Below are positions 5,038 through 62,341 of a stretch of 64,000 nucleotides of DNA, in pieces. Below the pieces are notes generated by a model, which did not search any database, was not told where the DNA came from, and saw nothing but the letters and a program-made list of their open reading frames with translations. The stretch covers positions 1 through 64,000 of the forward strand of contig NZ_CP049249.1 in the NCBI RefSeq assembly GCF_011046895.1, read 5' to 3'. How positions within the stretch are numbered: position 1 is the stretch's first letter; each line of letters begins with the position of its first letter. The stretch comes from Rhizobium rhizoryzae. GTDB lineage: Bacteria; Pseudomonadota; Alphaproteobacteria; Rhizobiales; Rhizobiaceae. Both the position numbers and the translations under genes were made by a program.

Positions 5038-6243
5038 ATGAACAAGTATGTGCCAGTGACCAATCTTTCAGCTGTCCCAACTTCCGGAAATGAAGCGGAT
5101 CATGCTGGGCTGACCAGTCAGCCTGCCTTCCTGACTCTGATAGAGGTAGTCAAGAACCGTCGAGATGAGTTCAACACGCTGAGGCACATTCCTCGTGATG
5201 TCGTTAGCCTGATGAAGAGCGCGGGCATCTTTCGGGCCTGTTCACCATCCTATTTCGGTGGCAGCGCCATGGCACCTCATCATTTTCTGAAGATGGTTGA
5301 AAAGCTGGGCGAATATGATGGTTCCGCGGCCTGGGTTGCAGCATTCGGCTCGTCGAACACCTATATCGCGGCACTTCCGCTCGAGACGCAGGCCGCCATT
5401 TATGCAACTGGTCCCGACCAGGTCTATGCCGGTGGCCTCTACCCCGTTCAAAAGGCCGAACGTGTTGAGGGTGGCTGGCGCGTAACTGGTCGCTGGAAAT
5501 TCGCTTCCGGATGCATGGGCGCAGACTGGATCGGCGTCGGCATTTCTGGTCAGTTTGGCGATACTGCCAATGCACCTCCTGTCGTCAAAATGGCAGTCTG
5601 TCCTGCAGCGGAAGTTGAGATCATCGATACGTGGAATGTCGTCGGAATGCGAGCCACCGGCAGCCACGACACCCAAGTGGTGGACAAGTTTTACGCGGAT
5701 GAGTGGACATGCGATCGTGGCTCCAGAGGTATTTTCGATGAGCCGCTCTACCGCTACCCGCCCATCGCCTTGCAGGCAGCGGTCCACGCTGCGGTCAATC
5801 TGGGTCTTGCGCGTGCTGCGCTGGAAATCGCGGTCGAGATGTCCGGCGGTGCCAAGATAATGCCCGGCTCACCTGCCTTGGCAAACCGGGGCTATTTCAA
5901 GTCTGGCTTAGCCGAGGGCGAGGCAAAACTGCGGGCCGCGCGCGCATTCTTCTACGAGACAGCCGAAAGTGCGTGGGCAGAACTGCAGGACAATGCCGAG
6001 GTTTCCCTAAATCTGGCAAATCTTCTGCGGCTCAGCGCAAGTCATGCAGCGCGTGTGTCCTGTGACGTTATCTCCCACTGCTTCCGGATTGTTGGCATGG
6101 CTGCCGTGCAGGATAGCCATCGCATGCAGCATATCCTTCGCGACGCTATCGTGGTGACGCAGCATGCTTCACTGAACGATGCCACTTTGGAGAATGCAGG
6201 TGCAGTCCTGGCAGGGATAAGCCCGCCTGCTGGATATCCTTAA
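5038..6243 (+). CDS. iacA: Flavin-dependent monooxygenase of acyl-CoA dehydrogenase fold, IacA-like
   Basis: 401 residues, the usual size of the oxygenase component of two-component flavin monooxygenases (IacA, HsaA, HpaB-group-D relatives). It has the acyl-CoA-dehydrogenase fold: an N-terminal helical domain, a beta domain (GRWKFASGCMGADW at about 150-165 and a GMRATGSHD loop at about 205-213), and a C-terminal helical bundle including a HCFRIVGM segment. It needs reduced FAD/FMN from a partner reductase. ATG at 5038 is chosen because AAGGGGA lies about ten bases upstream; an upstream TTG would add ten poor residues. Its company (Rieske pair, flavin reductase, SnoaL-like protein, amidase, cat genes) matches the iac cluster, where IacA carries out the first hydroxylation of indole-3-acetate. 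Indole or another aromatic acid remains possible. Confidence 0.8.
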   Translation: MNKYVPVTNLSAVPTSGNEADHAGLTSQPAFLTLIEVVKNRRDEFNTLRHIPRDVVSLMKSAGIFRACSPSYFGGSAMAPHHFLKMVEKLGEYDGSAAWVAAFGSSNTYIAALPLETQAAIYATGPDQVYAGGLYPVQKAERVEGGWRVTGRWKFASGCMGADWIGVGISGQFGDTANAPPVVKMAVCPAAEVEIIDTWNVVGMRATGSHDTQVVDKFYADEWTCDRGSRGIFDEPLYRYPPIALQAAVHAAVNLGLARAALEIAVEMSGGAKIMPGSPALANRGYFKSGLAEGEAKLRAARAFFYETAESAWAELQDNAEVSLNLANLLRLSASHAARVSCDVISHCFRIVGMAAVQDSHRMQHILRDAIVVTQHASLNDATLENAGAVLAGISPPAGYP

Positions 6244-6259
6244 GGGAAGGCTACGGATT

Positions 6260-6778
6260 ATGAACCTCTCTCAGAGCTTTCAAGAGCGGCTCAGGATCTA
6301 CCTTCAAACAGGGGAACTGCGGGACGGTGACATACGCTATCTGATAATGCGCACGGACGCCTTGATGGGGATGTTCACAAAGTTGGAGCCGGTGGCTCGC
6401 GATGCGGCACTCCTGGCGATGGCAGAGTCGGTCGCGGAGTTCGGCGGCAAATCAGTAGATACCTATCGGGTAAGTGGTGCCGACAATAGCGCCGAGCTAA
6501 TTTCCCTACTGATCCGTACCTCCGCCGAGCTTGGATGGGGCGCATGGACTTTCACGGAAGAATGCGACGGCGAAGTTCAGGTTTTAGTACGAAACAGCCC
6601 GTTTGCTTGTTCGGTCGAGAATGTCGGGACTGCAGTCTGTGCTCCGATTGTAGGCATCCTGACTGCGATCGCTCCAGTTCTGCTGGGACAAGGTGCAAGT
6701 GCAGCAGAAACGCAGTGTCATCAGGGCAGGGGAGGTTGCTGTCATTTCCGCATCAGCGCTGCGTCCAGCAAAAGGTGA
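6260..6778 (+). CDS. V4R (4-vinyl reductase) domain protein
   Basis: 172 residues, starting 16 bases after the monooxygenase and so probably in its operon. The C-terminal two thirds fit the V4R domain: GWGAWTFTEE at about 91-100, a VRNSPFACSVE segment, an APIVGILTAI helix and a final Cys-rich turn with CHQGRGGCCHF. V4R domains bind small hydrophobic or aromatic molecules and occur in phenol-responsive regulators, BchJ and methanogen proteins, often with Cys that can bind zinc. Here the domain stands alone without a DNA-binding or output domain. It may be a ligand chaperone, a sensor subunit or an accessory to the oxygenase. V4R is not part of the standard iac gene list as I recall it. Confidence 0.75.
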   Translation: MNLSQSFQERLRIYLQTGELRDGDIRYLIMRTDALMGMFTKLEPVARDAALLAMAESVAEFGGKSVDTYRVSGADNSAELISLLIRTSAELGWGAWTFTEECDGEVQVLVRNSPFACSVENVGTAVCAPIVGILTAIAPVLLGQGASAAETQCHQGRGGCCHFRISAASSKR

Positions 6779-6968
6779 ACTGACGCCGAAGGACGGAATG
6801 TTTGCCTGACGCACGGCACTCAAGAACAACTGTCTTCAGCCGGTCAGGTATTTGCGCGGGAGCGCAATGCAATTACAAAAAAGGTGAAGGTGAGACATTG
6901 TCTTTCTGGAGCCCAAAAATAAAAAAATACGAATAGCAAGAAACAAACAATAAAGATGGGAACTGATC

Positions 6969-7916
6969 ATGATAGACCTGCCTCTCAATCGTCGCCGATT
7001 CCTCGGCGTGTCTGCTGGTGCATTCGCCGCAGCATCGCTTGGCAATGTTGCACTCGGTGCTCCTTCGCCCATTCGCATCGGTGTCGGCTCTGACCCTGTT
7101 TTTGCTGCCTTTTATCTTGCTGACCAAGAAGGTCTGTTCAAGGCGGAAAACGTTGATGTTTCGGTCCAGTTGTACACAGACGGGGGCGAAGCGATGAATG
7201 CGCTTGTCGCGCAGCAGGTCGATGTCAGCGTTGCCTCAGAGCCATCCAGCCTCATCCGGCTCGCCCGTGCACCATTGCGCCCGCTCGCAATCAGCTATCA
7301 GTCTGGACGTTACGTCAAGCTGGTCCTTGGAAAGGGTGTAGTGGCTCCGAAGGACATCAAGCGTTTTGGCGTCGTCAAGGGCACCATCTCAGAATACTGC
7401 GCAGGTCTTTCACTGCCGGTAATCGGTCTCGATCCATCGAAAGTAAGCTTCATTCCATCCGGACCCCCAGAGCTGCCCGCTCTCCTGGCGCGAGGCGACA
7501 TCGACGCATACTTCTGCTGGGAGCCTTGGGCGACCAATGGCCTCGCACAAGGTGGCCGCATCGCAATGACCAGTGGCGAGGTCGGTTATCGTGATACCTT
7601 ATGGGTCACCGCGACAGCCGCGGCTTTGGAATCCAATCCTCAAGGTCTACAAGGCATGCTTCGCGCGATTGCCAAAGCGAGCAAAGTCATCACGGATGAC
7701 CCCAAACGTGCAGCAATTGCAGTCAAGAAGGCCACTCGTCTTCCTGAAGAATCCACCCTGAAGCTCTTGCAACAGATGACCCTCACCGTTCGTGACTTTG
7801 AGGAGGAAGACTACAAGAGTTACGACAAGATCGCGCAATTCCTGGCTGACAACAATGTCACCAAGGGCATCATCCCATATCGTACGATGCTTCAGCCCGG
7901 CTTTTACAAGGGTTGA
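6969..7916 (+). CDS. ABC transporter substrate-binding protein, NMT1/THI5 (SsuA/TauA) type, Tat-exported
   Basis: 315 residues. The N-terminus NRRRFLGVSAGAFAAASLGN has a twin-arginine motif and Ala-rich core ending near GAPSP, so export by Tat to the periplasm is likely. The mature part has the family layout: IRIGVGSDPVFAAFYLADQE, LVAQQVDVSVASEPS, and the FCWEPWATN hinge motif. Members bind sulfonates, nitrate, pyrimidine precursors and aromatic acids such as phthalate. It is followed at once by the ATPase and permease of the same importer and sits inside the catabolic island, so the natural reading is uptake of the aromatic/indolic growth substrate. The 190-base gap before it is A-rich and may hold a promoter. 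Confidence 0.88.
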   Translation: MIDLPLNRRRFLGVSAGAFAAASLGNVALGAPSPIRIGVGSDPVFAAFYLADQEGLFKAENVDVSVQLYTDGGEAMNALVAQQVDVSVASEPSSLIRLARAPLRPLAISYQSGRYVKLVLGKGVVAPKDIKRFGVVKGTISEYCAGLSLPVIGLDPSKVSFIPSGPPELPALLARGDIDAYFCWEPWATNGLAQGGRIAMTSGEVGYRDTLWVTATAAALESNPQGLQGMLRAIAKASKVITDDPKRAAIAVKKATRLPEESTLKLLQQMTLTVRDFEEEDYKSYDKIAQFLADNNVTKGIIPYRTMLQPGFYKG

Positions 7917-7920
7917 TGTC

Positions 7921-8712
7921 ATGGCGCACGGAGCTTCAATTTCATTGGCGCATGCAGGGATATCCTTTGGCGATGCGCATATCGTTTCTAACTTCAATCT
8001 AACGATTAAACCTGGTGAATTCATCTGCCTGCTTGGCCCAAGTGGCTGCGGAAAGTCCACCCTACTGAACGCGATTGCCGGCTTCCTGCCGGCGTCGGGA
8101 ACAATTGAAGTAGATGGGCGCGCCGTGAACGGTCCAGGTGTCGACCGGGGGGTTGTATTTCAATCCTCCGAAGTTCTCTTTCCGTGGCTGAATATCCGAG
8201 AAAATGTCGAATATGGATTGCGGCTGAAGCGAGTTCCATCTGCCGAAAGGCGGACAAAGGCCGAGTATTTCCTGGGGCTCGTGGGGCTGTCGCATGTGTC
8301 GGAGCGTTTTCCGGCCCAGCTTTCGGGTGGTATGCGCCAGCGCGCCCAGATCGCGCGCGTTCTGATTAATGAACCTTCGGTCGTGCTGATGGACGAGCCG
8401 TTCGGAGCACTCGATGCTCAGACGCGAGAGGTATTGCAGGAGGAACTTGACCGTATCTGGCGTGCGACGGGGTGCACCATTATCTTCGTGACACACGACA
8501 TCTGGGAATCCCTTTTGCTTGCTGATCGGGTCGTGGTGATGACGGCTGGTCCCCATGCATCCATCAAGACGATCGAGGCGATCGACCTGCCGCGTCCACG
8601 CGACCAGGGCAGTCCGGAATGTCTCGATCTCTTCAGGCGGCTGCGAGATGATATTGGCGCAGAAGTAAAACAGGCGCTGCGTCAGCAGGGTCTCAGCAGG
8701 CAGGAGGTTTAA
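7921..8712 (+). CDS. ABC transporter ATP-binding protein (SsuB/TauB type)
   Basis: 263-residue ATPase of the importer encoded by its neighbours. Walker A is GPSGCGKST at residues 39-47, the signature is [15 protein letters not shown], Walker B is VVLMDEPFGALD, and the switch His follows in FVTHDIWES. ATG at 7921 lies five bases after the binding-protein stop; the open frame extends upstream inside that gene, but the extension is not ABC sequence. The WESLLLADR segment after the switch is typical of the nitrate/taurine/sulfonate subfamily. Works with the permease beginning three bases after its stop. Confidence 0.93.
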   Translation: MAHGASISLAHAGISFGDAHIVSNFNLTIKPGEFICLLGPSGCGKSTLLNAIAGFLPASGTIEVDGRAVNGPGVDRGVVFQSSEVLFPWLNIRENVEYGLRLKRVPSAERRTKAEYFLGLVGLSHVSERFPAQLSGGMRQRAQIARVLINEPSVVLMDEPFGALDAQTREVLQEELDRIWRATGCTIIFVTHDIWESLLLADRVVVMTAGPHASIKTIEAIDLPRPRDQGSPECLDLFRRLRDDIGAEVKQALRQQGLSRQEV

Positions 8713-8714
8713 TC

Positions 8715-9521
8715 ATGACCGACGCGGTTCAAGTCTCGGCTCCACGAGCCTCAACCCTCAGCGCTCTCTTTCCCAAGACACTCCTCAAACCCCTTGTCGG
8801 TGTTATTTCCGTCGCTATTGGCATCGTCGTTTGGCATATCGGTTCACTGTTTACATCGCCGCTCTTCCTGCCTTCGCCCATAACGGTATGGCGCACGGCA
8901 TTGGAAATGCTTGCGGACGGTACCCTGGTGCAGTCGGTTGCTGCATCGGCAGCACGCATTGCGGCAGGCTGGTTTGTCGGTGTCGCTGTCGGAATTCCGC
9001 TTGGCATCTTTATGGGCCGGTTTGCGATCGTCCGTCTTTTGATGGATCCGTATATCGAGTTCTTCCGGTTCATTCCCCCGATTGCCTTCGTCACACTTGC
9101 AGTCATCTGGTTGGGACCGGGTGAAGTAACCAAAGTGGCACTAATTTTCTACACGACCGTCTTCATCGTGACATTGAACACGATTGCTGGTGTCGGGGCA
9201 GTAAAGCCAATGCGGTTGCAGGCTGCCCGAAGCATGGGCGCCTCCAAGATCGAGGAAATGACGACGATCATTCTTCCCTCCACCGTGCCCTACATGGTCA
9301 CTGGCGCGCGGCTTGCCATGGGAAATTCATTCCTGACGGTCGTTTCGGCAGAGATCGTATCTGCTCAGACCGGTCTTGGTGCGACAATCTGGACGGCGCG
9401 CAACTTTGGCAGAACCGACTGGGTCTTTGTCGGGATCATAGCGCTTGGGATCTTGGGGTTCATTTTTGATAGGCTTTTTCGATTTGGCTCGAACGCCCTT
9501 CTAAAGCCTCGGTATCTGTAA
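8715..9521 (+). CDS. ABC transporter permease (SsuC/TauC type)
   Basis: 268-residue inner-membrane permease of the BPD-transport superfamily. About six hydrophobic segments are visible, the first at about residues 26-46 (VGVISVAIGIVVWHIGSLFT). The cytoplasmic coupling motif for the ATPase is in the QAARSMGASKIEEMTTIILP region (consensus EAA---G). It probably acts as a homodimer with the preceding ATPase and the Tat-exported binding protein. Substrate unproven; context suggests an aromatic or indolic acid. Confidence 0.92.
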   Translation: MTDAVQVSAPRASTLSALFPKTLLKPLVGVISVAIGIVVWHIGSLFTSPLFLPSPITVWRTALEMLADGTLVQSVAASAARIAAGWFVGVAVGIPLGIFMGRFAIVRLLMDPYIEFFRFIPPIAFVTLAVIWLGPGEVTKVALIFYTTVFIVTLNTIAGVGAVKPMRLQAARSMGASKIEEMTTIILPSTVPYMVTGARLAMGNSFLTVVSAEIVSAQTGLGATIWTARNFGRTDWVFVGIIALGILGFIFDRLFRFGSNALLKPRYL

Positions 9522-9582
9522 ACCGGAGGCAGCCACGCGCTGCCGACCGTTCCCTCCAATACACAGTCTGGAAGCGTTGGGC

Positions 9583-9605
9583 GGGTCGCGATGCGGAAGC
9601 GACCC
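9583..9605 (+). other. Hairpin between importer and Rieske oxygenase genes
   Basis: GGGTCGC at 9583-9589 pairs with GCGACCC at 9599-9605, leaving a 9-base loop. No T-run follows, so it is not a standard terminator; it could be an mRNA-stability or processing element inside the operon. Confidence 0.4.
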
Positions 9606-9651
9606 CTGGGTAAACTCGCGCCTGGTTCCAGTCACATCAGAGGATAAAACA

Positions 9652-10929
9652 ATGATGAGCAACTCTTTGTTGCCGGTTGATGGCAGCAGTATCGATGCCA
9701 TGGTCAAGCCTGATCGTGCGAAAGGTACTCTTTACACGGACCCCGCCTTGTTCAACGAGGAGATGAGCCGCATCTTCGCCAAGACATGGATTTGGGTGGC
9801 TCATGAATCTGAAATTGCCAATCCTGGCGATTACAAGATGGCGAGCGTGGGCCTTGAGCCTGTGATTGTCACCAGAGATCGGAAAAGCCAGATCCATGTC
9901 CTGGTCAATCGTTGCCGCCATCGCGCTGCAACCGTTTGCGAAGTGCATAAAGGCAAGACAAACAGTTTCGTATGTCCCTATCACGGCTGGGCCTATGCTC
10001 TGGACGGCAGCTTGCGTGGTGTTCCTTACGATGAAAGTTATGCGGGCAAGCTCGAACGCGGCAATCTTGGCTTGAAATCCTTGCGGGTCGAGCAGTACCG
10101 GGGGCTTGTGTTTGCGACCTTCAACGAAGACGCTGAACCGCTTGTAGATTTCCTCGGCCCGGCAAGAAAATGGATTGATCTGTTTCTAAAGCAGAGTGCT
10201 GATTACCCCCTCGTTGCACTTGGCGAACATAAATTCGTCTTTCCGGGAAATTGGAAGATCCAGCTCGAGAACACGACGGATGCTTACCACTTCCCATTGG
10301 TTCACAAGACCTTTCTGAATGTCACAGATTCAGAAACCGAGGAACTGTTCGACATCATGAACAAGGGCGGCTGGGTCGAGGATCTCGGCAATGGTCACAG
10401 TGTGATGGTCATGATGCCGGAACTCGTTGATCTCGAGGAAGATCTCGAAGCGCCGATTCCGCACAAGTTTGCAGACCTTGCGGAAGAACTCCGCGCCGAG
10501 GGTCATGATGAAACCAAGGTGCGCCGGATCGTACGGGCTGTCGGTGGCACAGGTTTCAATCTCAATCTGTTTCCCAATCTCGGATGTTCTGCCGCGTTTT
10601 TTCGCGTTCTTCAACCGATTTCGGTCAACGCGACGGAGGTTCGCCATATTGCTCTAGGCATGGGTGGCGGCCCGGCTGCGGCAAACCAGGCACGGCTGCG
10701 CATTCACGAGTTCTTCCAGGGGCCAATGGGTTTTGGAAGTCCGGATGATTCCGAGGTCTGGGACAGGGTGCAGCACGGAGCCCAGGGCGGCGGCGATCTA
10801 TGGATCATGCTGAACCGCAGTCTGGAAAATGAAACTGTTGGTGAGGACGGGCAGGTTCGCGGCGACGTGAGCTCTGAACTCGGGATGCGGACTGCCTACC
10901 GGCAGTGGAAAAAGTTGATGGAGGCTTAG
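9652..10929 (+). CDS. iacC: Rieske aromatic-ring-hydroxylating oxygenase, alpha subunit (IacC/AntA-like)
   Basis: 425 residues, a full-length RHO large subunit. The Rieske [2Fe-2S] motif is Cys88-x-His90 and Cys108-x2-His111. The mononuclear iron site is NTTDAYHFPLVH with Asp210 as the bridging residue and His213 and His218 as ligands; the third ligand should be in PDD at about 365-366. ATG at 9652 is chosen over an upstream start since AGAGGA lies about seven bases before it. No cis-diol dehydrogenase gene is nearby while catechol genes are, so the product is probably catechol formed with spontaneous deamination/decarboxylation, as with anthranilate dioxygenase (AntA). In iac clusters this protein is IacC. 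Paired with the beta subunit and reductase directly downstream. Confidence 0.85.
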   Translation: MMSNSLLPVDGSSIDAMVKPDRAKGTLYTDPALFNEEMSRIFAKTWIWVAHESEIANPGDYKMASVGLEPVIVTRDRKSQIHVLVNRCRHRAATVCEVHKGKTNSFVCPYHGWAYALDGSLRGVPYDESYAGKLERGNLGLKSLRVEQYRGLVFATFNEDAEPLVDFLGPARKWIDLFLKQSADYPLVALGEHKFVFPGNWKIQLENTTDAYHFPLVHKTFLNVTDSETEELFDIMNKGGWVEDLGNGHSVMVMMPELVDLEEDLEAPIPHKFADLAEELRAEGHDETKVRRIVRAVGGTGFNLNLFPNLGCSAAFFRVLQPISVNATEVRHIALGMGGGPAAANQARLRIHEFFQGPMGFGSPDDSEVWDRVQHGAQGGGDLWIMLNRSLENETVGEDGQVRGDVSSELGMRTAYRQWKKLMEA

Positions 10930-12488: not shown

Positions 12489-13013
12489 ATGGATACTTTG
12501 CATGAAGCAGTCTCGACCCAGACCTTTCGGAACGCAATGTCCAAGTTGGGAGCAGCGGTAAATATAATCACGACGGAGGGGCACGCAGGCAGACACGGCA
12601 TAACGGCCTCAGCAGTCTGCTCAGTCACGGATACACCGCCAACAGTGCTCGTCTGCGTCAACCGAAATTCGAGTGCGCATGATGTAATTATGAGTAACGG
12701 CGTGCTTTGCGTGAATGTTCTTGGGCACGGACACGAGACGTTAGCACGAAAATTTGGTCAGCCCGGGCTTTCACCAGACGAGCGGTTTGCGCAAGGCAGT
12801 TGGACCCAATCCTCGACCGGCGCGCCGGTGCTGGTTGACGCCGTAGTGTCGCTTGATTGTCGGATCGTCGAACGCCACGAAATTGGAACACATAGCGTTT
12901 TCTATTCCAGAATCGAAACCGTTACGACAGCCGAGGTCGCGCAAAGCCTCGTATACTTCGACCGAGCATTCCATTGCCTCGGACAGGTCCAGACATCGAC
13001 CTCGCACCTTTGA
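12489..13013 (+). CDS. iacG: NAD(P)H:flavin oxidoreductase, HpaC/RutF family (IacG-like)
   Basis: 174 residues, the usual size of small flavin reductases that feed diffusible FADH2 or FMNH2 to two-component monooxygenases. Family features are FRNAMSKLGAAVNIITTEGH at about 10-30, the GITASAVCSVTDTPPTVLVCVN segment (about 37-58, given in parts here) and the FYSRIETV strand near the C-terminus. It follows the Rieske reductase by 19 bases. The likely partner is the IacA-like oxygenase. In P. putida 1290 the corresponding gene is iacG. Confidence 0.85.
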   Translation: MDTLHEAVSTQTFRNAMSKLGAAVNIITTEGHAGRHGITASAVCSVTDTPPTVLVCVNRNSSAHDVIMSNGVLCVNVLGHGHETLARKFGQPGLSPDERFAQGSWTQSSTGAPVLVDAVVSLDCRIVERHEIGTHSVFYSRIETVTTAEVAQSLVYFDRAFHCLGQVQTSTSHL

Positions 13014-13045
13014 AGATGTTGTAGCATCAGAAAGCGAGGCGCACG

Positions 13046-13615
13046 ATGACCGATTACGAACTGTCCATGAAGGCGCTTGTCAAGCGCGTCGAGATCCTAG
13101 AGGCGGAGGCTGAAATCCGCAGGCTGCAAGCTCGCTACATGTTCCTGTGCGATACGCCTCTTCCCGAAGACGGCGTTGCGGATGACACCGCCCGCATCGA
13201 CCTCATTTTGGGGCTCTATACTCCAGATGCGGTTTGGGAAGGGGTCGGAGAATACTACGACAATCAATTCGGCCGTGCCGTGGGAGCCAATGCAATAAGA
13301 CGGCACTTCGAGGCATTCTGGGGTACCAAACGCGATCCAGCTCTTGTTCTCAACTGTCACTATCTCACCTCCGAACAAATTCATGTGCACGAGGACGGGG
13401 CTTTTGCGGATGGACAATGGGTCCATATGCAGCCATGGCTTTTTTCGGATGGAACCGCGCTGCTGCGATCGTCACGGCTGAACAACGGTTTTCGCCGGGA
13501 GCCGGATGGACAGTGGCGGATCACGCGGACGCGAACCGAGAATGTCTTCGTAGCCCCGCTTCCCACCAATTGGGCGTCCGACTTTCCAAAATCGTCGGTT
13601 CTCATGCAGCGCTGA
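13046..13615 (+). CDS. iacI: SnoaL-like / NTF2-fold protein (IacI-like)
   Basis: 189 residues. After a charged N-terminal helix (VKRVEILEAEAEIRRLQARY), the rest has the SnoaL-4 pattern: LYTPDAVWEG, an FGRAVGANAIRRHFEAFWG segment, CHYLTSEQIHVH and GQWRITRTRTENVF. These small alpha+beta cones are hydrolases, isomerases or oxygenase-like enzymes in aromatic pathways. A SnoaL-like IacI is a standard member of the iac set and is thought to act after ring hydroxylation. It lies 32 bases after the flavin reductase. The exact step is not fixed by sequence. Confidence 0.75.
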   Translation: MTDYELSMKALVKRVEILEAEAEIRRLQARYMFLCDTPLPEDGVADDTARIDLILGLYTPDAVWEGVGEYYDNQFGRAVGANAIRRHFEAFWGTKRDPALVLNCHYLTSEQIHVHEDGAFADGQWVHMQPWLFSDGTALLRSSRLNNGFRREPDGQWRITRTRTENVFVAPLPTNWASDFPKSSVLMQR

Positions 13616-54655: not shown

Positions 54656-55416
54656 TGTCCGCTCAACAGCCGTCGAACCATGAACCGTCTGCCATCGCGA
54701 TCCGCAATCTCGACAAGTGGTACGGCACCTACCATGCGCTGCGTAATGTGACCCTGTCGGTCAAGCCGGGCGAGCGTATAGTCATCTGCGGACCGTCCGG
54801 TTCCGGCAAATCGACGCTCATCCGGTGCGTCAATCATTTGGAAGAGCACCAGAAGGGCGAGATCGTCGTCAATGGTGTGACCTTGAACGACAGTCTGAAG
54901 AACATCGATGCGATCCGTCGCGATGTCGGGATGGTGTTCCAGCACTTCAACCTGTTTCCGCATCTGACTGTTCTGGAGAACTGCGCGCTGCCGCAGATTC
55001 TGTCACGCGGGACACCGAGAAAGCTCGCCGAAGACCGCGGCATGGAATTGTTGGAACGGGTGCGGATTCCAGAGCAGGCGCTGAAGTATCCCGGTCAGCT
55101 TTCGGGTGGCCAGCAGCAGCGTGTCGCGATCGCACGCGCCTTGTGCATGGCGCCGAAGATCATGCTCTTTGACGAACCGACATCCGCGCTCGATCCGGAG
55201 ATGGTGAAGGAGGTCCTGGAAACGATGGTTGCCTTGGCCGAGGACGGCATGACGATGATCGTCGTCACCCACGAGATGGGTTTTGCCCGGCGCGTGGCAG
55301 ACCGTGTCGTGTTCATGGACAAGGGCGCCATCGTCGAAAGCAGTGCACCCGATGCTTTCTTCGATGCCCCGACCCATGAGCGGACAAGAAGCTTCCTCAG
55401 CCAGATCGTTCACTGA
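54652..55416 (+). CDS. aapP: Amino-acid ABC transporter ATP-binding protein (AapP-like)
   Basis: 254 residues. Walker [10 protein letters not shown] at 47-55, signature [15 protein letters not shown], Walker [16 protein letters not shown], switch His in VVTHEMGFA. The [20 protein letters not shown] start and [20 protein letters not shown] are typical of polar amino-acid importers. Powers AapQ/AapM. Last gene of the operon starting with the C-S lyase. Confidence 0.96.
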
Positions 55417-55498
55417 TTGGTGCGGACTGGGCGAGAGGGCGGACCAAGCTATGGTTTTTCCTCGTCCTCCTGATCCACCTCAAACTCGACTTTGGATG

Positions 55499-56016
55499 CT
55501 ACTTGCCGTGATCCTTGTGGGCGCCGTGCGCGTCGTGGCCGCCAGGATTGTCGGCGCCCTCGACCATCACGGTCCCCTCGAAGCTTGCAAATAGCGCCAG
55601 CGTCTTCGCATCGACATTGGCTTCCGCCTCCGCGAGCTTACTTGCCAGAGCCGTAGCATCGGCAGAGGAGAGCCCCATAGTTTTCAGGGCATCGGCCTGC
55701 TTCAGCCCATCGCCGCTGCACAGATGAATGCTCCAGCCATCGCTCTTCTTTTTGAGAAGCGCACGACCGCCGCGGCCTTCCTGGGTCCAGCCGGCAATCG
55801 CCCAGTCGCCTTGGACGACGACAGGTGATACGGCCAATGGCTTCTCGGCCGTTTCAAAAATCGCCTTCATCTTCGCAGGGATAGCCATCTGGGGATCTGC
55901 GGATTGCGGCGCCATCGGCATCGCAGCGTGGTCTCCATGATTTGGGCGAGAGCGGGAGACACAGTCGCGATGGTGGCAATCGCGATCGCCAACAGTTTTG
56001 CCTTCAGATGTTTCAT
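55499..56016 (-). pseudogene. Copper-uptake-associated periplasmic protein, frameshifted after the signal peptide
   Basis: The start at 56016 (MKHLKAKLLAIAIATIATVS, then PALAQ) is a clean signal peptide; the body (PMAPQSADPQMAIPAKMKAI; GDWAIAGWTQEGRGGRALLK; WSIHLCSGDGLKQADAL) is in another frame. The two join near 55935-55950 by a one-base change; total length 518 is not a multiple of three. The body has a single Cys and a His-rich tail (GGHDAHGAHKDHGK), fitting a metal-binding periplasmic protein of the kind annotated as copper-uptake-associated. Last of a leftward operon. Either a real mutation or a sequencing error. Confidence 0.7.
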
Positions 56017-56805
56017 ATCGTTTCCTCCTCCTGAGAGAGATGTTCTGTTGTGTGGTGAGAAGCCGTGGGGACGATGACAGTCACCCCCGATTGGGTTCTG
56101 AGAAACTCCGCCTCGATACCGTAGTAGGTTCGCAGGGCGTCCGGCGTCACGATATCGGCGAAACAGCCGTGGCCTCTCAATTTTTCCATCCGCGAGCAGC
56201 ATCACGGAATCGCAGTGCCTTGCAGCAAAGTTCAGATCGTGAATGGCAATGAGAACCAGCGCCTGCGTTCTGGCGACATAGTCTTTCACAACCTTCAGCA
56301 CATGAATCTGATGGCGCATGTCCAAGGCGCTGGTGGCTTCGTCCAGCAAGAGAAGCGGCGGCTTGCGCAAGAGTCGTTGCGCCAATAGCGCCAGTTGCTG
56401 CTGCCCGCCCGACAAGGTCGAGACCTTTCGCTCCGCCAGATCGGCAATACCGAATTGGGAAAGAATGCGCGCACTCGCCTCGACGATACTTGGGTCGACA
56501 CGCCAGCCCAGTTGTTCGTGACGGCCCAGAGGGATTACTTCGAGCACCGTCAGATCCGCGGTGACCTGGCAGTGCTGTGGCATATAGCCGAGATCGTGAA
56601 CGCTGACGACCTGCGCATTCCAGAGCACGCTTCCGGTGGATGAAACAACGCCCGAGATGGCGCCGAGAAGCGTCGACTTCCCGGCGCCGTTGGGACCGAT
56701 CAGTGCGACGATCTGGCCCGCTGGCAGTGATACGGTTACATCGGACAAGATGTGCTTCTTTCCGGCGACGACGCTCACGTCGCGGAGGACAAGACGCCCC
56801 GTCAT
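56013..56805 (-). CDS. FecE/BtuD-type ABC ATP-binding protein, frameshifted near the C-terminus
   Basis: Reads well from ATG at 56805: Walker A GPNGAGKST, GYMPQHCQVTADLTVLEVIP, signature LSGGQQQLALLAQRL, Walker B LLLLDEATSALD, switch His in IAIHDLNFA. After LLADGKIE the frame should continue GHGCFADIVTPDALRTYYGI and on to a stop at 56013 overlapping the next start, but one extra base near 56176 shifts it, and as it stands it reads through into the next gene. Gene length 793 is one more than a multiple of three. The ATPase core is complete, so partial function is possible. Belongs with the FecCD permease and binding protein upstream. Confidence 0.85.
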
Positions 56806-57866
56806 GCGACACCTCGCTTGCCGCGGCGGATGATCACCGCAAACAGCATGGGAACCCCGGCAACGGCGGTGATGATGCCGACAGGAATGACGGCGCCTGG
56901 CGAAATCAGCTTTCCGAATACGGAGGCAGCGATCAGGATGATGGCACCCGCCATGGCGGCAAGCGGAAGAGAGAAACGATGATCCTCACCGACAAGGCTG
57001 CGGGCAACATGCGGCGCGATCAGCCCGACAAAGCCGATGGTGCCTACGAAGGACACGGCGCCCGCCGTCAGAAGTGCGACGATCAGGAAGGTTTCGCGTC
57101 GAAGTTTCTCGACCGAAAGTCCGAGGCTTCTCGCATTGGCGTCCCCTAGGCGAAGTGTTTTCAGCGCCCAGGTCTGGCGTGCGATGAAGGGAAGGCAGGC
57201 GAGTGCGATCGCCGTGGTCGCCGTGACGCTGGTCCAGGTGGATTTCAAAAGACTGCCAAACAGCCAGAACACGATCTGCTGGAGAACTTCCGGCGATGCC
57301 AGAAACTGCAGCATCGATTGCAGCGATTGGAAAAAGAAGAGAACGGCAATGCCGCCGAGTACGAGGATTTCGGGCGTCGCACCCCGAAGGCGGGCAATCA
57401 CATAGATGAGCCCACAGGCAACCAGCGTCATGGCGAAGGCGCTGATGGGAATGGTGAGATAGGCGGGCAGGGGGACAAGCGACCCGAATATTATGGCGAG
57501 TGCTGCGCCAAAACCGGCGGCGGCGGAAAAACCCAGCGTAAAGGGGCTTGCCAGCGGATTGTTGAGAATCGTCTGCATCTGCAGGCCCGCAAGACCGAGG
57601 CAGGCGCCGACAAGGGCTCCCATCAGGGTCTGCGGCATGCGTAATTGCCACAGGATCGTTGCCACCATCCGGTCCGGGCCGGATGGTCCATTGAGCAGTC
57701 CATGCCAGACATCGCCAAGCGGCATGCCGGATGGCCCTGTCGTGAGATCAAGAACCATCAGCAGAATGAGCACACCGAGGGAAAACAGGAGAGCCAAGGC
57801 GCGACGGATGGATGCACGGCGGTAGCCGCCGTGCATGATCTCGGTGTCCCGGGTCTGGGAGGTCAT
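56802..57866 (-). CDS. ABC transporter permease, FecCD family
   Basis: 354 residues with about nine to ten membrane segments. FecCD landmarks: LRMPQTLMGALVGACLGLAG, LQMQTILNNPLASPFTLGFS, LSVEKLRRETFLIVALLTAG and VGTIGFVGLIAPHVARSLVG. Such permeases import siderophores, heme, B12 or other metal chelates. Both ends overlap neighbours by about four bases, so it is translated with the ATPase and binding protein. Functions as a homodimer. Confidence 0.94.
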   Translation of the reverse strand: MTSQTRDTEIMHGGYRRASIRRALALLFSLGVLILLMVLDLTTGPSGMPLGDVWHGLLNGPSGPDRMVATILWQLRMPQTLMGALVGACLGLAGLQMQTILNNPLASPFTLGFSAAAGFGAALAIIFGSLVPLPAYLTIPISAFAMTLVACGLIYVIARLRGATPEILVLGGIAVLFFFQSLQSMLQFLASPEVLQQIVFWLFGSLLKSTWTSVTATTAIALACLPFIARQTWALKTLRLGDANARSLGLSVEKLRRETFLIVALLTAGAVSFVGTIGFVGLIAPHVARSLVGEDHRFSLPLAAMAGAIILIAASVFGKLISPGAVIPVGIITAVAGVPMLFAVIIRRGKRGVA

Positions 57867-58969
57867 TGTGCCCCGGCCTTGTAGGGGAGGACGAAGACGC
57901 CGTCAGCCTTGATCGGCAGCCATTTTGCATAGTAGTCCGCTATGTTTTTGGCCGGATCGACGTCCTTGGGGGCGGCAGGATAGAGCTGCTTGGCGATGAA
58001 CTGCGCATAGACATAGTCGGACAGCGTGCGTGCTCCACCGTGATAGATGGCGAAGACGTCGCCATTCTTGACAGCGGGAAGTTCCGACCAGCCCGGACGC
58101 TGCATGTAGGCCTTCATGCGCTCACGCGTCACGGCCGGGTCTGCGCCGAAACCGACGGCGACCGATTGCGGCTTGTTCAGCCATTCCGAACCTGCGAGGA
58201 AAATCAGGTCGGGTTTCTGGGCAAGCACATATTCGGGGCTCAGCGGTCCCCAGTTGCCGATCTGGCCCTTGGCGATATTGGCGCCGCCGAGGCTGCCGAT
58301 CAGGGCGCCCCACATGCTGTTGCCATAGGAGTTGCCGACTTCCGCCGGTCCCTTCTGGGCAAGTTCGACATAGACCTTCTTCGTGGTTGGTCCAGCCGCC
58401 TTGATGCGTGTGTCGATGTCGGTGATTGCATCCTGATAGTTCTTGACCAGCGCCTGTGCACGCTCTTCAGTGCCCATCAGTTTGCCAAGTGCCAGGGTGG
58501 AGGCCACATGCTTTTCGACTGTCTGGGCGTTGTAGTCGAGGACGACGATTGGAATGCCTGCGGCCTCGATCTGCTTGATGCCTTCGCCAAGCGCGTCGTA
58601 GGACCAGGCTGCGAGGATCAGCAGGTCAGGCTTGGCGGCAATGACCTTTTCGATGGAAAAGGTGTTGTCTTCGGTGTTACCGACATCCGGGATCGATGAA
58701 AGCCTGGGAAGTGCCTTCTCATAAAGCGCGAACTGGTTCGGTCTCCAGTCTTTCCACGTTGAAAGCGAGAGCGCCACCACCTTGTCGAGAGCGCCAGGAC
58801 CGGCGATGGCGAGATAGTCCTCGTAATAGAAGCTGAGGACGACCCGTTCCGGGACCTTGGGAACCGTTACCGTTCTGCCTTTGACATCGGTCACGGTAAT
58901 GTCGGCGAAGGCGGATGCTGCCATCGTCAGAAGGGCGGCAAGGGTGGAGATGAACAGTTTTTTGGTCAC
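57863..58969 (-). CDS. Periplasmic binding protein, FecB/TroA type (metal-chelate ABC transporter)
   Basis: 368 residues. Signal peptide LFISTLAALLTMAASAFADI, cleavage near 22. Two-lobe class III fold: ITVTDVKGRTVTVPKVPERV at the start, KPDLLILAAWSYDALGEGIK, and GPLSPEYVLAQKPDLIFLAG in the second lobe, joined by a long helix. The ligand is a metal chelate, siderophore or free metal; the linked copper-related proteins make copper a candidate and iron the default. It is 64 bases after the PepSY gene. Confidence 0.9.
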   Translation of the reverse strand: MTKKLFISTLAALLTMAASAFADITVTDVKGRTVTVPKVPERVVLSFYYEDYLAIAGPGALDKVVALSLSTWKDWRPNQFALYEKALPRLSSIPDVGNTEDNTFSIEKVIAAKPDLLILAAWSYDALGEGIKQIEAAGIPIVVLDYNAQTVEKHVASTLALGKLMGTEERAQALVKNYQDAITDIDTRIKAAGPTTKKVYVELAQKGPAEVGNSYGNSMWGALIGSLGGANIAKGQIGNWGPLSPEYVLAQKPDLIFLAGSEWLNKPQSVAVGFGADPAVTRERMKAYMQRPGWSELPAVKNGDVFAIYHGGARTLSDYVYAQFIAKQLYPAAPKDVDPAKNIADYYAKWLPIKADGVFVLPYKAGAQ

Positions 58970-59033
58970 GATTTTACCTTGAGGTTGTGGGCGGCAACGG
59001 CGCGCTGCTGCCGCCTTGGAGAGGTTGATAGGA

Positions 59034-60446
59034 TTAGCTAAGGGGACGCTTGGACGGCCTGACGTGTCGGAAGACGAAGAGATCGAGAAGGATCACCGCG
59101 ATCAGGACGGCGCCGCTCAGCGGAAAAAGCAGTGAAAGGGCGAGCATGATGATCGCACCGGCCTTCCAGAGCGGCATCTTGTCGGCGGTGACAGGGGCAA
59201 CGAGCCGCCCGGCACCGGAGGGCCTGCGCTTCCACCACATGACGATGCCGCTCACCGACATGAAGATGACCGACACACAGAAGAGGGTGTTGAGGGCGAC
59301 GTTCCAGAGGCCCATATCGCCTTCATGGAAGGCAATGCCCACAGCCATCGCTTTGCCGGCCACGCCGTAGTCAACGAATTTGACGTCTGTCAGGATCTTG
59401 CCGGTATATCTATCGATATGCACCGTGCGATCCGACATCGGATCGGCGCTGTCATTGCTCATCGTATCGCGCGCAAGAGTCCATACACCCGTCTCACCGC
59501 TCGGGAATGATAGTTGGAAGCGCCCGTTGAATCCAAGTGTTCGTGCCAGCGCCACAATCGTATCCACATCGACCGGTTCGCCTGCTGCAACACCCTGAAT
59601 GCCCGCATTCGATCCGGAGGCCGGCATCGGCGTCTGTTCCAGCGTCCAGGGCACATTCTTCACGCCGTCATGATTCATGCTGGCATGGTTGGCGTCCGAG
59701 AGAGGTACATTGTCCCACTTGGCGGCCGGAAAGGTGCTCCAGGCCTGTGTCATCTTCTCGCCCCAGATGCCCGCCCAGGTGAGGCCGGAGAGCAGGAAGG
59801 CAAGCAGGATGATCGATGCATAGACACCAATCGTCTGGTGCAGCGACTTCCAGACCTGACGGCTCTTGCCGTTGATGGTCGGCACCAGTGATGAGGCAAA
59901 ACTGAGCCCGTCGCGGGGCCACCACATGTAGACACCCGTCACAATGAGCATGACTGCAAAGCCCGCGGCAATCTCGATCAGGCGATCGCCGACAGTCCCG
60001 ATCAGCAGCGTTCCGTGAATGGTGTCGGCGAGGTCATAGAGGGCGTTACGGCGCTCCCAGCTCCCGAGCACCGTCGCATTGGAAGGATCAACGGCAACCA
60101 TGGTTGCGGCATCCCCTGCCTTGACGCGGAAGACCGCCGGCTCTGTTACGGTCCGCGGCGCGATGTATTGTACCAATGTCCCGTTCGAGACCGCAGACAG
60201 GGCAGAGGTTGCCTGCTGAGCAACAGCCACGGTTTGCGCACTGGGCTGAACGGAATAGAGCTTTTCTCCATCACGACCCACCAGGACCGATGACCACAGC
60301 ATCAGGAGCCCGGTCACCGCCAGCATGATCAGAAATGGCGCCACGTAGAGGCCGGCATAAAAATGCCAGCGCCAGGCCGTGTTATAGAAGTTTCTGGCAA
60401 AGCTTTGATCCAGTATGGATGACGACTGATCTGTCGCAAGTGTCAT
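59034..60446 (-). CDS. PepSY-domain transmembrane protein (PepSY_TM)
   Basis: 470 residues from ATG at 60446, after GAGGGGGA. PepSY_TM family: FYNTAWRWHFYAGLYVAPFL at the N-terminus with the conserved His in WHFYAGL, then three more membrane segments, with PepSY repeats in the periplasmic loops (VDVDTIVALARTLGFNGRFQ; DRTVHIDRYTGKILTDVKFV). The second His-rich helix is GIAFHEGDMGLWNVALNTLF. Relatives are linked to siderophore reduction at the inner membrane and to copper or iron uptake. Here it sits between an FNR-type regulator and the ABC transporter, so reduction of the imported metal chelate is a reasonable guess. Confidence 0.9.
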   Translation of the reverse strand: MTLATDQSSSILDQSFARNFYNTAWRWHFYAGLYVAPFLIMLAVTGLLMLWSSVLVGRDGEKLYSVQPSAQTVAVAQQATSALSAVSNGTLVQYIAPRTVTEPAVFRVKAGDAATMVAVDPSNATVLGSWERRNALYDLADTIHGTLLIGTVGDRLIEIAAGFAVMLIVTGVYMWWPRDGLSFASSLVPTINGKSRQVWKSLHQTIGVYASIILLAFLLSGLTWAGIWGEKMTQAWSTFPAAKWDNVPLSDANHASMNHDGVKNVPWTLEQTPMPASGSNAGIQGVAAGEPVDVDTIVALARTLGFNGRFQLSFPSGETGVWTLARDTMSNDSADPMSDRTVHIDRYTGKILTDVKFVDYGVAGKAMAVGIAFHEGDMGLWNVALNTLFCVSVIFMSVSGIVMWWKRRPSGAGRLVAPVTADKMPLWKAGAIIMLALSLLFPLSGAVLIAVILLDLFVFRHVRPSKRPLS

Positions 60447-60488
60447 GGTTGTCCCCCTCAAAGAACAGAGTGTCGGAAATCTCGGTGA

Positions 60489-61184
60489 TCAGGCTGCGGG
60501 CGTCGCGCCGGTCGCAAGCGCCAGAAGTCCTTGGCGGTCGCGAATGGTGATCAGTTCGGGCTGGTCAAACGCGATAAGGCGATCGCGTTTGAAGCGGCTG
60601 AGGCAGCGGCTGACCGTTTCGTGGGTCAGGCCTAGCCAATCCGCCAGTTCGCTTCTGGAGAGATAGAGCAGGAAGCTGCTGCGCCCGTCATGCCCCTGGC
60701 GGGTAAACTGGCCGGAAAGATCCAGCAGGGCAGACGCAACCCGCTCAGTCGCCGTCTGGCGGCCGAGAACCAGACCATGGGCTTGAGCGCGCTTGAGCAT
60801 GCGCATTGCGGCCTCATTGATCGCTTCAGCGTTCTGTTCAGTCTCGATCTCTTCGAGCCGTGGGTCGCAAACCGCCATAGCCCGGCATTCATGAAGATCA
60901 ACATGCTCGCCGCTGATGACCCAGCCAGGGCCGAAAATATCGAGGATCTGCCGACGCTCGTCACTCAGCTCGCGATAGAGAACCACACAGCCGCGCAACA
61001 GGCGGAACGTGAGCGGAACACCCAGCCGAGCCAGAGGAATGTCGATATGCGCGGAAAAGTTGCGAATGCGCGGTATGGACGCTTGGGAGAACTGTCGCAG
61101 GACGTGCAGGGGGAATGCTTCATCCCTGGATAACATGCTTAACATGCGCGGATATCCAGCCATTTGCCGGAACAGCGCAGTCAC
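60489..61184 (-). CDS. Crp/Fnr-family regulator with FNR-type recognition helix
   Basis: 231 residues from GTG at 61184, chosen because GAGGAAA lies six bases upstream; a TTG at 61247 would overlap the preceding gene. N-terminal cyclic-nucleotide-like barrel (VPLTFRLLRGCVVLYRELSD), dimer helix, then HTH SRSELADWLGLTHETVSRCL with the Glu, Ser and Arg that in FNR/FixK contact TTGAT half sites. The four-Cys N-terminal [4Fe-4S] site of FNR is missing, as in FixK/NnrR. The ILDIFGPGWVISGEHVDLHE segment is family-typical. It probably controls its own operon in response to oxygen- or metal-related signals. Confidence 0.88.
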   Translation of the reverse strand: MTALFRQMAGYPRMLSMLSRDEAFPLHVLRQFSQASIPRIRNFSAHIDIPLARLGVPLTFRLLRGCVVLYRELSDERRQILDIFGPGWVISGEHVDLHECRAMAVCDPRLEEIETEQNAEAINEAAMRMLKRAQAHGLVLGRQTATERVASALLDLSGQFTRQGHDGRSSFLLYLSRSELADWLGLTHETVSRCLSRFKRDRLIAFDQPELITIRDRQGLLALATGATPAA

Positions 61185-61212
61185 GCGATTTCCTCGGCAC
61201 GGATTGTCGAAG

Positions 61213-61236
61213 GCGACCGCTTGAGAAAGCGGTCGC
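61213..61236 (-). other. Perfect 10-bp hairpin between DUF2946 gene and crp/fnr gene
   Basis: GCGACCGCTT (61213-61222) and AAGCGGTCGC (61227-61236) with a GAGA tetraloop. It ends four bases from the stop of the DUF2946 gene. On the minus strand no T-run follows, so it may slow or partly end transcription, or stabilise the upstream mRNA. Confidence 0.55.
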
Positions 61237-61239
61237 GGT

Positions 61240-61617
61240 TCAGGCAATCAGGCCGAAGGGAGGCGCACGCGGTGACGCATTGGGAGGAAAGAGCTGCCTG
61301 TAGAAGGCCTCAAAGCGAACTGGAACGAACCGATCCGCAGCACGCAACGCGAGCGCCGTCTCAATCGCGGGCGGTGCGGGCAGAAGGATGGCGGACGCGA
61401 GCCGGCAGGCTTCGCAACCCGTGCCAAAATCATGGCTATGCTTTTTGCTGGCGTCATCTTCCGATGGCAGGCACAGCACAGGCACGGTTCCATCAGGAAG
61501 AGTATATGCCGCAAGCTCGGCCGGAGTGAGCCTGTTCGCCAAAACAGACAGGGGCTTGTGAGATAGGCCGACAAGCAACAGGGCGATCGCGCATACGATG
61601 CGCGTCAAAGTCCCCAT
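61240..61617 (-). CDS. DUF2946-type membrane-anchored protein (putative copper-related)
   Basis: 125 residues from ATG at 61617; longer frames to 61767 have no family match. N-terminal hydrophobic segment RIVCAIALLLVGLSHKPLSV (signal or anchor). The body has a Cys/His cluster, VLCLPSEDDASKKHSHDFGT then GCEACRLASAIL, as in DUF2946 proteins, whose C-x-x-C and His are thought to bind metal; several relatives are found beside copper or TonB uptake genes. First gene of the leftward operon. Ends in PRAPPFGLIA. Confidence 0.72.
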   Translation of the reverse strand: MGTLTRIVCAIALLLVGLSHKPLSVLANRLTPAELAAYTLPDGTVPVLCLPSEDDASKKHSHDFGTGCEACRLASAILLPAPPAIETALALRAADRFVPVRFEAFYRQLFPPNASPRAPPFGLIA

Positions 61618-61841
61618 CTGTTTGCCGAATGGCGTTATATTAAACCTCACTGCAGGATACCAAATCGTGTGTTTCGTGGAGGAGCAATGCGACAACCGCA
61701 CACATGAAAGCACAGTATCTCGTGCTCTACCACCAGCGACCCGGAGGACAGTCTCAGTTTTCTTCACTCCTCGAGTTCAAGTCAACCGATGGCCGCTTCA
61801 GCAGCCTGCTTTCCTGGATCAGAGAAAATCTTGATAAGCAC
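61618..61841. other. Region upstream of the metal operon
   Basis: Probably holds the operon promoter (TATTAAAC-like AT-rich stretch near 61635-61645). No clear TTGAT-N4-ATCAA site for the FNR-type regulator is seen. A plus-strand frame from 61704 has no recognisable product and its second half is antisense to the integrase remnant. Confidence 0.3.
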
Positions 61842-62123
61842 CTAGGCGATGCGCTCCGGTATCTCATCATGGCCAAGGGTGACGCCAAAGAAGAACCTCA
61901 GCGCGCAGACCGTCTGGTTCAAGGCCGGCCATGACAGGCCCTTCGACACCAGATGCACCTGAAAGGCGCGCACGTCTCCCAGTCCAAGTCGGTCTGGCGA
62001 TCGCCCGAAATAGCGCGAGAACTTTGTCACCGCATGCAAATAGGATCGCTGCGTCGCCGGCGACAAGTTTCGGATCGTCATGTCTTCGATCATCCGCCGG
62101 CGTAGAGGGCTCATCTCACTCAT
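61842..62123 (-). pseudogene. Tyrosine-recombinase (integrase) N-terminal remnant
   Basis: From ATG at 62123 the minus strand reads MSEMSPLRRRMIEDMTIRNL, SPATQRSYLHAVTKFSRYFG and RAFQVHLVSKGLSWPALNQT, the SAM-like core-binding domain of tyrosine recombinases found with IS91-like and related elements. It stops after EIPERIA, where active proteins go on with the catalytic domain (R-H-R-Y), which is absent. The flanking 62124-62341 holds nothing else recognised. A scar of an integrated element. Confidence 0.8.
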
Positions 62124-62341
62124 GGGTATCTCCCGTTCAAAGGTTGGCCAAAACAGCCAATCCTTCAAACCAGAGACACGCCATGCAAATCAGAGGCCCC
62201 AACTGCCGCGAAAACGGCTTCGTTCAATCCACTTTGTCAACAGGGCCTAGCGTACGATTTTGGACTGCTCTTGTTCCGACCCCAAAAGCACAAAGGCGGG
62301 GCGCCGGTCTGTGCAGCAGCTGGCGTTCCGTTGAACCTTCA

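Follow-up and report, generated by a model that had tools for sequence, protein, structure and literature searches.

A CruR-like leader ahead of a Fec-type ABC transporter: a candidate copper-acquisition operon in Rhizobium rhizoryzae

Introduction

The cruR-crtA(bfrG)-crpH operon of Bordetella pertussis is headed by CruR, a leader open reading frame (ORF). As described in the main text of Roy 2022, the nascent CruR peptide senses copper through a CxxC motif, the arrest at its RAPP motif is relieved, and Rho then stops transcription before the next gene. Arrest at RAPP has been seen in vitro, and RAPP and RGPP are scarce in bacterial proteomes, according to the main text of EMBO J 2025. Here we describe an operon of Rhizobium rhizoryzae (assembly GCF_011046895.1) in which a CruR-like leader is followed by genes for a Crp/Fnr-family regulator, a PepSY_TM membrane protein and a Fec-type ATP-binding cassette (ABC) transporter. 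It lies within the first 64,000 nucleotides (nt) of contig NZ_CP049249.1, and this whole 64,000-nt stretch is referred to as the window.

The main text of the CrpH paper describes a copper-linked PepSY_TM subfamily encoded downstream of cruR and crtA, and states that, until CrpH, the PepSY_TM enzymes that had been characterised were ferrisiderophore reductases. CutF-like genes are found directly before nitrous-oxide reductase or NosR genes, with TonB and PCuAC genes as neighbours (CutF paper). Few routes of copper across the inner membrane are understood, and the main text of a 2020 review holds that further copper importers, as yet uncharacterised, are likely to exist.

The locus is best explained as an operon for copper starvation in which a CruR-type arrest peptide precedes copper-capturing genes, a reading to which we give a probability of roughly two in three. 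A CruR leader with PepSY_TM downstream is already known in Bordetella; the Fec-type ABC importer behind a CruR-like leader would be the new part. A CruR-led Fec-type ABC importer is not described in the literature searched, which consisted of main texts, with figures, supplements and most subscription papers outside it, so that an earlier description elsewhere may exist. The main text of Roy 2022 is without the terms 'ABC', 'Crp' and 'NosR', the CutF paper is without 'ABC' and 'Crp', and the arrest-peptide paper is without 'ABC transporter'.

Results

A CruR-like leader heads a conserved set of copper genes

The first gene of this operon of copper genes encodes a DUF2946 protein with both hallmarks of CruR, the metal motif CEAC and a C-terminal SPRAPPFGLIA that holds the RAPP arrest motif. 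On the minus strand, from 61617 to 55499, the order is the DUF2946 gene, Crp/Fnr, PepSY_TM, the FecB-, FecCD- and FecE-type genes and a domain of the copper uptake system-associated protein (CUSAP). This agrees with the gene list of a preliminary description made from the sequence alone, which profile searches confirmed. PepSY_TM (PF03929) scored 199.6 bits, FecCD (PF01032) 283.3 bits, the periplasmic binding protein (PF01497) 99.6 bits, and NF033672, the CUSAP profile, 135.7 bits against a cut-off of 50; ABC ATPase (PF00005) and Crp-type helix-turn-helix (PF13545) profiles were matched as well. A Peripla_BP_2 binding protein, a FecCD permease and an ABC ATPase in one operon constitute a Fec-type importer set, of which the ATPase is broken near its end here and intact in locus L010 of Rhizobium sp. 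CSW-27. L010 served as the intact reference for the window copy and carries the leader, regulator, PepSY, FecB, FecCD, FecE (263 amino acids, aa) and a 310-aa PCuAC-CUSAP fusion. A sigma-70 promoter scan of 55400-62200 found none, fewer than in shuffled sequence, and was uninformative.

Relatives were collected by scanning genome contigs with a three-sequence FecB alignment, which gave 91 confirmed loci, of which 80 were kept. The scan patterns were built from copper-context seeds and so favour close relatives; L016 repeats a seed and L009 is one. The rows were divided into a high-scoring set (52 rows with a FecB score of at least 450 bits, plus L009 among them) and a low-scoring set (30 rows). 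Neighbours were counted by six-frame profile search (hmmsearch), since ORF picking sometimes took antisense frames. A CruR-like ORF was counted when it had CxxC and a [RK][AGS]PP C-terminus and lay upstream of FecB on the same strand.

Such an ORF is present in 39/52 high-scoring and 2/30 low-scoring rows; upstream sequence is absent in two (L030 and L033) of the 13 high-scoring rows without one. The same bias toward the high-scoring set holds for PepSY (11/52 versus 0/30), PCuAC or CUSAP (17/52 versus 1/30), Sco (9/52 versus 1/30) and nosR or nosZ within 12 kb (8/52 versus 0/30). The Crp/Fnr gene occurs in 22/52 versus 0/30 rows. The preliminary description had placed an FNR/FixK-type regulator at the head of the operon, a position that belongs to the DUF2946 gene; the regulator comes second and is found in fewer than half of the high-scoring rows. 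Co-occurrence of the operon's genes exceeds chance by far, and in many loci (L019, L027, L047 and L061, for example) FecB is the very next gene after the leader.

In a maximum likelihood tree of the 82 FecB rows, rooted at the midpoint, 57 rows fall on one side and 25 on the other, with a support of 100/100 for the split. CruR-linked rows make up 41/57 of the one clade, with two more cut by contig ends, and 0/25 of its sister clade. Several long branches were flagged, and where L066, L072 and L093 join at depth is uncertain. By eye, a gene for a pseudoazurin-like cupredoxin follows the ATPase gene in L075, L086 and L087 of the sister clade, and a ferritin-like gene lies near the transporter in L075 and L087. 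A reverse-strand EamA-like transporter gene, also named by eye and with its cluster present in 7 loci, stands between the transporter and the nos cluster in L030, L032 and L033.

A DNA search of a plasmid collection gave partial matches only. Of 44 plasmid records matched in a further search, 7 were examined. Allorhizobium ampelinum S4 carries genes for a hypothetical protein, Crp/Fnr, a binding protein, an 'iron ABC transporter permease', an ATPase, a copper uptake system-associated protein and SCO. Agrobacterium leguminum p1 has DUF2946, binding protein, permease and ATPase, with nosDFYL-side genes adjoining on the opposite strand, and a Thioclava plasmid has DUF2946 and three ABC genes. Sagittula stellata, from another order, has PCuAC, DUF2946, PepSY, Crp/Fnr, binding protein, permease and ATPase. 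A 126-aa protein without a name is encoded directly upstream in Rhodobacter sp. CZR27. The Ketogulonicigenium record has no annotated DUF2946, and the Ensifer record carries no annotation.

The 3′ end of the leader

C exceeds G around the 3′ end of the window leader (0.339 versus 0.261), a feature expected of a Rho-dependent terminator. The excess recurs in 41/41 leader loci, where C minus G averages 0.090 compared with 0.015 (standard deviation 0.054) in fec-gene segments, and proline-rich coding probably explains part of it. The gap between the leader and ATG 61145 of the regulator is 94 nt (76 nt to ATG 61163), versus 162 nt in B. pertussis; in some relatives only a few nt separate the leader from the FecB frame. 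A 10-bp hairpin lies directly 3′ of the window leader stop (z −2.7). As a general regulatory structure the post-leader hairpin was rejected, its median z being −0.88, with z below −2 in just 8/41 loci.

Some leader-like ORFs were left uncounted as CruR. Two in L041 (Novispirillum; 9431-9847 and 12963-13418) end in ARGPPLF(S) with a Cys spacing other than CxxC, one preceding FecB and the other a PepSY_TM-like gene. An ORF in L058 ends in RAPPSNA and is without CxxC.

The binding protein and the PepSY_TM protein

The AlphaFold model of the FecB-type protein has a mean predicted local distance difference test (pLDDT) score of 92.2. The YiuA site, as given in the main text of the YiuA paper, consists of a basic triad (Arg64, Arg165, Arg223) plus His331 and Tyr334. 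By sequence alignment these five residues fall on a gap, Asn147, Ala204, His310 and Ala313 of the window protein, which is thus without the basic triad. Asn147 and His154 are identical in both FecB groups, and the Arg loss is common to the sister clade, so neither separates the groups. Position 310 is His in 43/43 CruR rows (41 plus the two cut by contig ends), Gln in 25/25 sister rows and His in 12/14 others of the clade. The site thus differs from the YiuA siderophore site and may be one for copper.

Several His residues of the PepSY_TM protein are invariant in 10/10 related rows and are candidates for the haem-ligand positions of the CrpH subfamily; a comparison with PDB sequences gave no match at E <= 0.01. 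Other genomes of the genus (L011, L012, L013) have a leader, a PepSY_TM protein only about 33% identical and a PCuAC-CUSAP fusion, with no Fec-type genes between; L011 and L012 have Sco in addition.

The regulator and low oxygen

The regulator has Cys at 17, 87, 121, 127 and 215 of a 252-aa frame, none of them in a CxxC. The N-terminal Cys ligands of FNR (4Fe-4S) are thus missing, as the preliminary description had said. Its suggestion of a response to low oxygen fared less evenly. FNR-like boxes, with two mismatches allowed and within 250 nt upstream of the leader, occur in 19/41 loci versus 77/529 other upstream regions of the same loci, a contrast whose p-value is overstated as the loci are related. 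This lends modest support, and low-oxygen control is plausible for the family on sequence grounds. The window itself has no properly placed box: the single site upstream of the leader with at most two mismatches, at −236 and beside an integrase fragment, was rejected as proof of oxygen control. The regulator gene does not go along with the box either, being present in 9/19 loci with a box and 12/22 without.

Layout and damage of the window copy

The features of the operon are listed in Table 1. The 55867-56805 frame is a chimera of a frameshifted fecE and the relic signal peptide that belonged to the following gene. In fecE, one base too many in an A-run (T on the plus strand) at 56181-56185 puts the last ~50 codons out of frame and leaves ~210 of 263 aa. 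In the chaperone gene, 420 nt of L010 are represented by 5, so that a net 415 nt are missing at about 55940-55946. The PCuAC domain (PF04314), which scores 134.7 bits in the L010 fusion, is deleted, and the CUSAP domain no longer shares the reading frame of the signal peptide. The AlphaFold model of CUSAP has a mean pLDDT of 79.4; its best PDB matches are NTF2/cystatin-like at E about 0.1, with none at E <= 0.001.

Table 1. Features of the operon in the window.
Feature	Coordinates	Strand	Evidence
CruR-like DUF2946 leader ORF, 125 aa; signal-like N-terminus, CEAC, C-terminus FPPNASPRAPPFGLIA	61240..61617	-	78% identical gene in L010
Leader-regulator gap, 94 nt, from stop of CruR-like ORF to ATG 61145; hairpin	61146..61239	-	
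Crp/Fnr-family regulator without CxxC Fe-S ligands; ATG 61145, alternatives 61163 or TTG 61247	60489..61145	-	
PepSY_TM membrane protein, possible copper reductase	59034..60446	-	profile match, invariant His
FecB-type substrate-binding protein; His154 and His310 conserved	57863..58969	-	profile match, structure model
FecCD-type permease	56802..57866	-	profile match
FecE-type ATPase, ~210 aa intact, then frameshift; low end approximate	56023..56805	-	comparison with L010
PCuAC-CUSAP fusion remnant: relic start and signal peptide from 56017; CUSAP domain 55499-55921	55499..56017	-	

Ahead of the leader the DNA does not match that of L010, with similarity lost close to the start codon. At 61842-62168 on the minus strand, ~220 nt upstream of the operon, lies the N-terminal part of a tyrosine recombinase (integrase; Phage_int_SAM_4). 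The mismatch with L010 suggests a rearrangement at the upstream edge. The ratios of nonsynonymous to synonymous substitution (dN/dS) against L010 are 0.06 for FecB, 0.08 for PepSY, 0.11 for both FecCD and the leader, 0.18 for FecE, 0.20 for CUSAP and 0.28 for the regulator.

A second, intact operon lies on another replicon, a 3.4-Mb contig (L014; G000:C4:1475000-1492000, 5960-8323), with a leader ending in NPRAPPASA, Crp/Fnr, PCuAC and Sco. The genome also encodes nirK and five COX1-family proteins, identified by eye as CtaD, CyoB, one more oxidase, CcoN and NorB; it has no nosZ. The preliminary description named denitrification enzymes and oxidases as possible recipients of the copper. The nirK gene and oxidases here, and nosR/nosZ near the transporter in relatives, agree with this, nosZ itself being absent from this strain. 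In relatives, the copper enzymes of denitrification may plausibly be supplied by the operon.

Discussion

Judged by comparative genomics, the locus is very likely an operon for copper acquisition or allocation under a CruR-type leader, and its Fec-type ABC transporter probably carries copper or a copper chelate. The acquisition role, proposed earlier, is borne out by the leader, by the PCuAC, CUSAP and Sco partners and by nos clusters that adjoin this transporter in relatives. His310 in the CruR rows, the C-over-G region in 41/41 leader loci, the second, intact operon of the genome and the low dN/dS of FecB and PepSY also favour the copper-starvation reading. The comparisons show the gene order, the motifs and the conserved association; regulation, substrate and direction of transport are inferred. 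We also lean towards a wider claim, that a clade of Fec-type ABC transporters labelled as iron transporters are inner-membrane copper importers under a CruR-type nascent-peptide sensor, serving haem-copper oxidases and nitrous-oxide reductase in Alphaproteobacteria.

Under copper shortage the ribosome would stall on RAPP at the leader end, Rho would be blocked and the downstream genes would be made; copper bound to the nascent CEAC would relieve the stall and let Rho terminate. In the periplasm, the FecB-type protein would capture copper or a copper chelate for import by FecCD and FecE, and the PepSY_TM protein may reduce Cu(II) or free copper from its chelator. PCuAC-CUSAP, with Sco in relatives, would pass copper to haem-copper oxidases or, in relatives, to nitrous-oxide reductase. 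A further layer of control, at transcription, probably comes from the Crp/Fnr protein.

Several observations weigh against the copper-starvation reading. The window leader scores 20.0 bits with the Pfam DUF2946 profile, below the cut-off of 23.7, which is passed by relative L009 (32.5 bits) and by the second copy of the same genome (24.8). Fourteen of the 57 clade rows have neither a counted CruR nor the excuse of a contig end; eight of these belong to the Lautropia, Ottowia, Cardiobacterium and Brucella group and the remainder are single rows. The contrast between His and Gln at position 310 tracks one split of the tree, and is thus one event and not 43. A TonB-dependent receptor, recognised by similarity to six query receptors, lies within the fetched locus in 4/43 leader-linked rows. 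The window locus has no outer-membrane receptor gene, and none of five receptors found in the genome lies within the window. With receptors this rare, the cassette is without an outer-membrane gate of its own. Finally, fecE and the chaperone gene are damaged in the window genome.

That damage makes it quite possible, at somewhat less than even odds, that the window operon is a decaying relic and that the second CruR operon, which is intact, does the work. The 415-nt net deletion and the frameshift in the chaperone gene, the frameshift in fecE, the upstream DNA unlike L010 and the nearby integrase fragment all fit decay. Against it, CruR, the regulator, PepSY, FecB and FecCD are intact with dN/dS of 0.06-0.28, values that mostly reflect the time before the damage. 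The fecE frameshift, which falls within an A5 run, may be an artefact of sequencing, and most of FecE remains. The window copy is probably impaired, and function of the operon in this strain may be reduced by the damage to the ATPase end and the chaperone gene.

It is unlikely that the Fec-type ABC transporter imports iron, as a ferric xenosiderophore, or haem, with PepSY_TM as ferrisiderophore reductase and a copper leader present because oxidase assembly needs both metals. The nearest solved structures of FecB, FepB-like 4mo9 and YiuA, belong to iron/siderophore systems, some with iron bound (YiuA with Fe), and the PepSY_TM enzymes known before CrpH point the same way. NCBI labels the permease 'iron ABC transporter permease', and some sister-clade loci have neighbours that, judged by eye, encode a ferritin-like protein or are of receptor type. 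In L049 (12156-14989; Brucella sp. 21LCYQ03) a transporter of the CruR clade without a counted CruR is followed by the haem genes hutW and hutX, the strongest hint of haem-related use inside the clade. Against iron or haem stand the CruR-like leader directly upstream of FecB in many loci, the copper chaperone partners and the nos clusters next door. All three Arg of the YiuA triad are absent and the His is kept, the Arg loss being shared with the sister clade.

That the leader acts like CutF, with copper switching the downstream genes on for copper handling and not for uptake under starvation, is improbable: Cys motifs and Pro-rich ends are common to proteins of the CutF and CruR types, whose outputs are opposite, and a hairpin follows the stop codon, but the RAPP/RGPP ends are those of CruR, the C-over-G region is as at a Rho terminator, and the downstream genes serve import and delivery with no multicopper oxidase among them.

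If the copper-starvation reading is true, an ABC importer of copper linked to nos clusters would bear on the reduction of N2O, which needs copper, a wrong 'iron transporter' label would be corrected across many genomes, and CruR-type control would gain a new kind of target.

Compared with known systems, the window FecB shares the fold of the YiuABC and FepB-like Fec-type transporters (cluster A-2), with a TM-score near 0.8 by query length and an identity of about 26-34% along the full protein; it differs from them in lacking the basic triad, in a His310 invariant among CruR rows and in standing under a copper leader. CcoA, of the CalT family, likewise imports copper across the inner membrane for oxidase assembly; it is a single major facilitator superfamily protein, with neither ABC subunits nor a binding protein. 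In the CutF-CutO-CutG system of Rhodobacter capsulatus, too, a nascent exported protein with a Cys motif and a Pro-rich end controls the next gene by copper; there the direction of control is opposite, the next gene is a multicopper oxidase and the C-terminal motif is another. The cruR-crtA(bfrG)-crpH operon of B. pertussis resembles the window operon in having a DUF2946 leader with CxxC and a C-terminal RAPP as its first gene and PepSY_TM downstream. To that plan the window operon adds a Crp/Fnr gene and the genes of a Fec-type ABC importer, without a TonB-dependent receptor, and its relatives add PCuAC-CUSAP and Sco.

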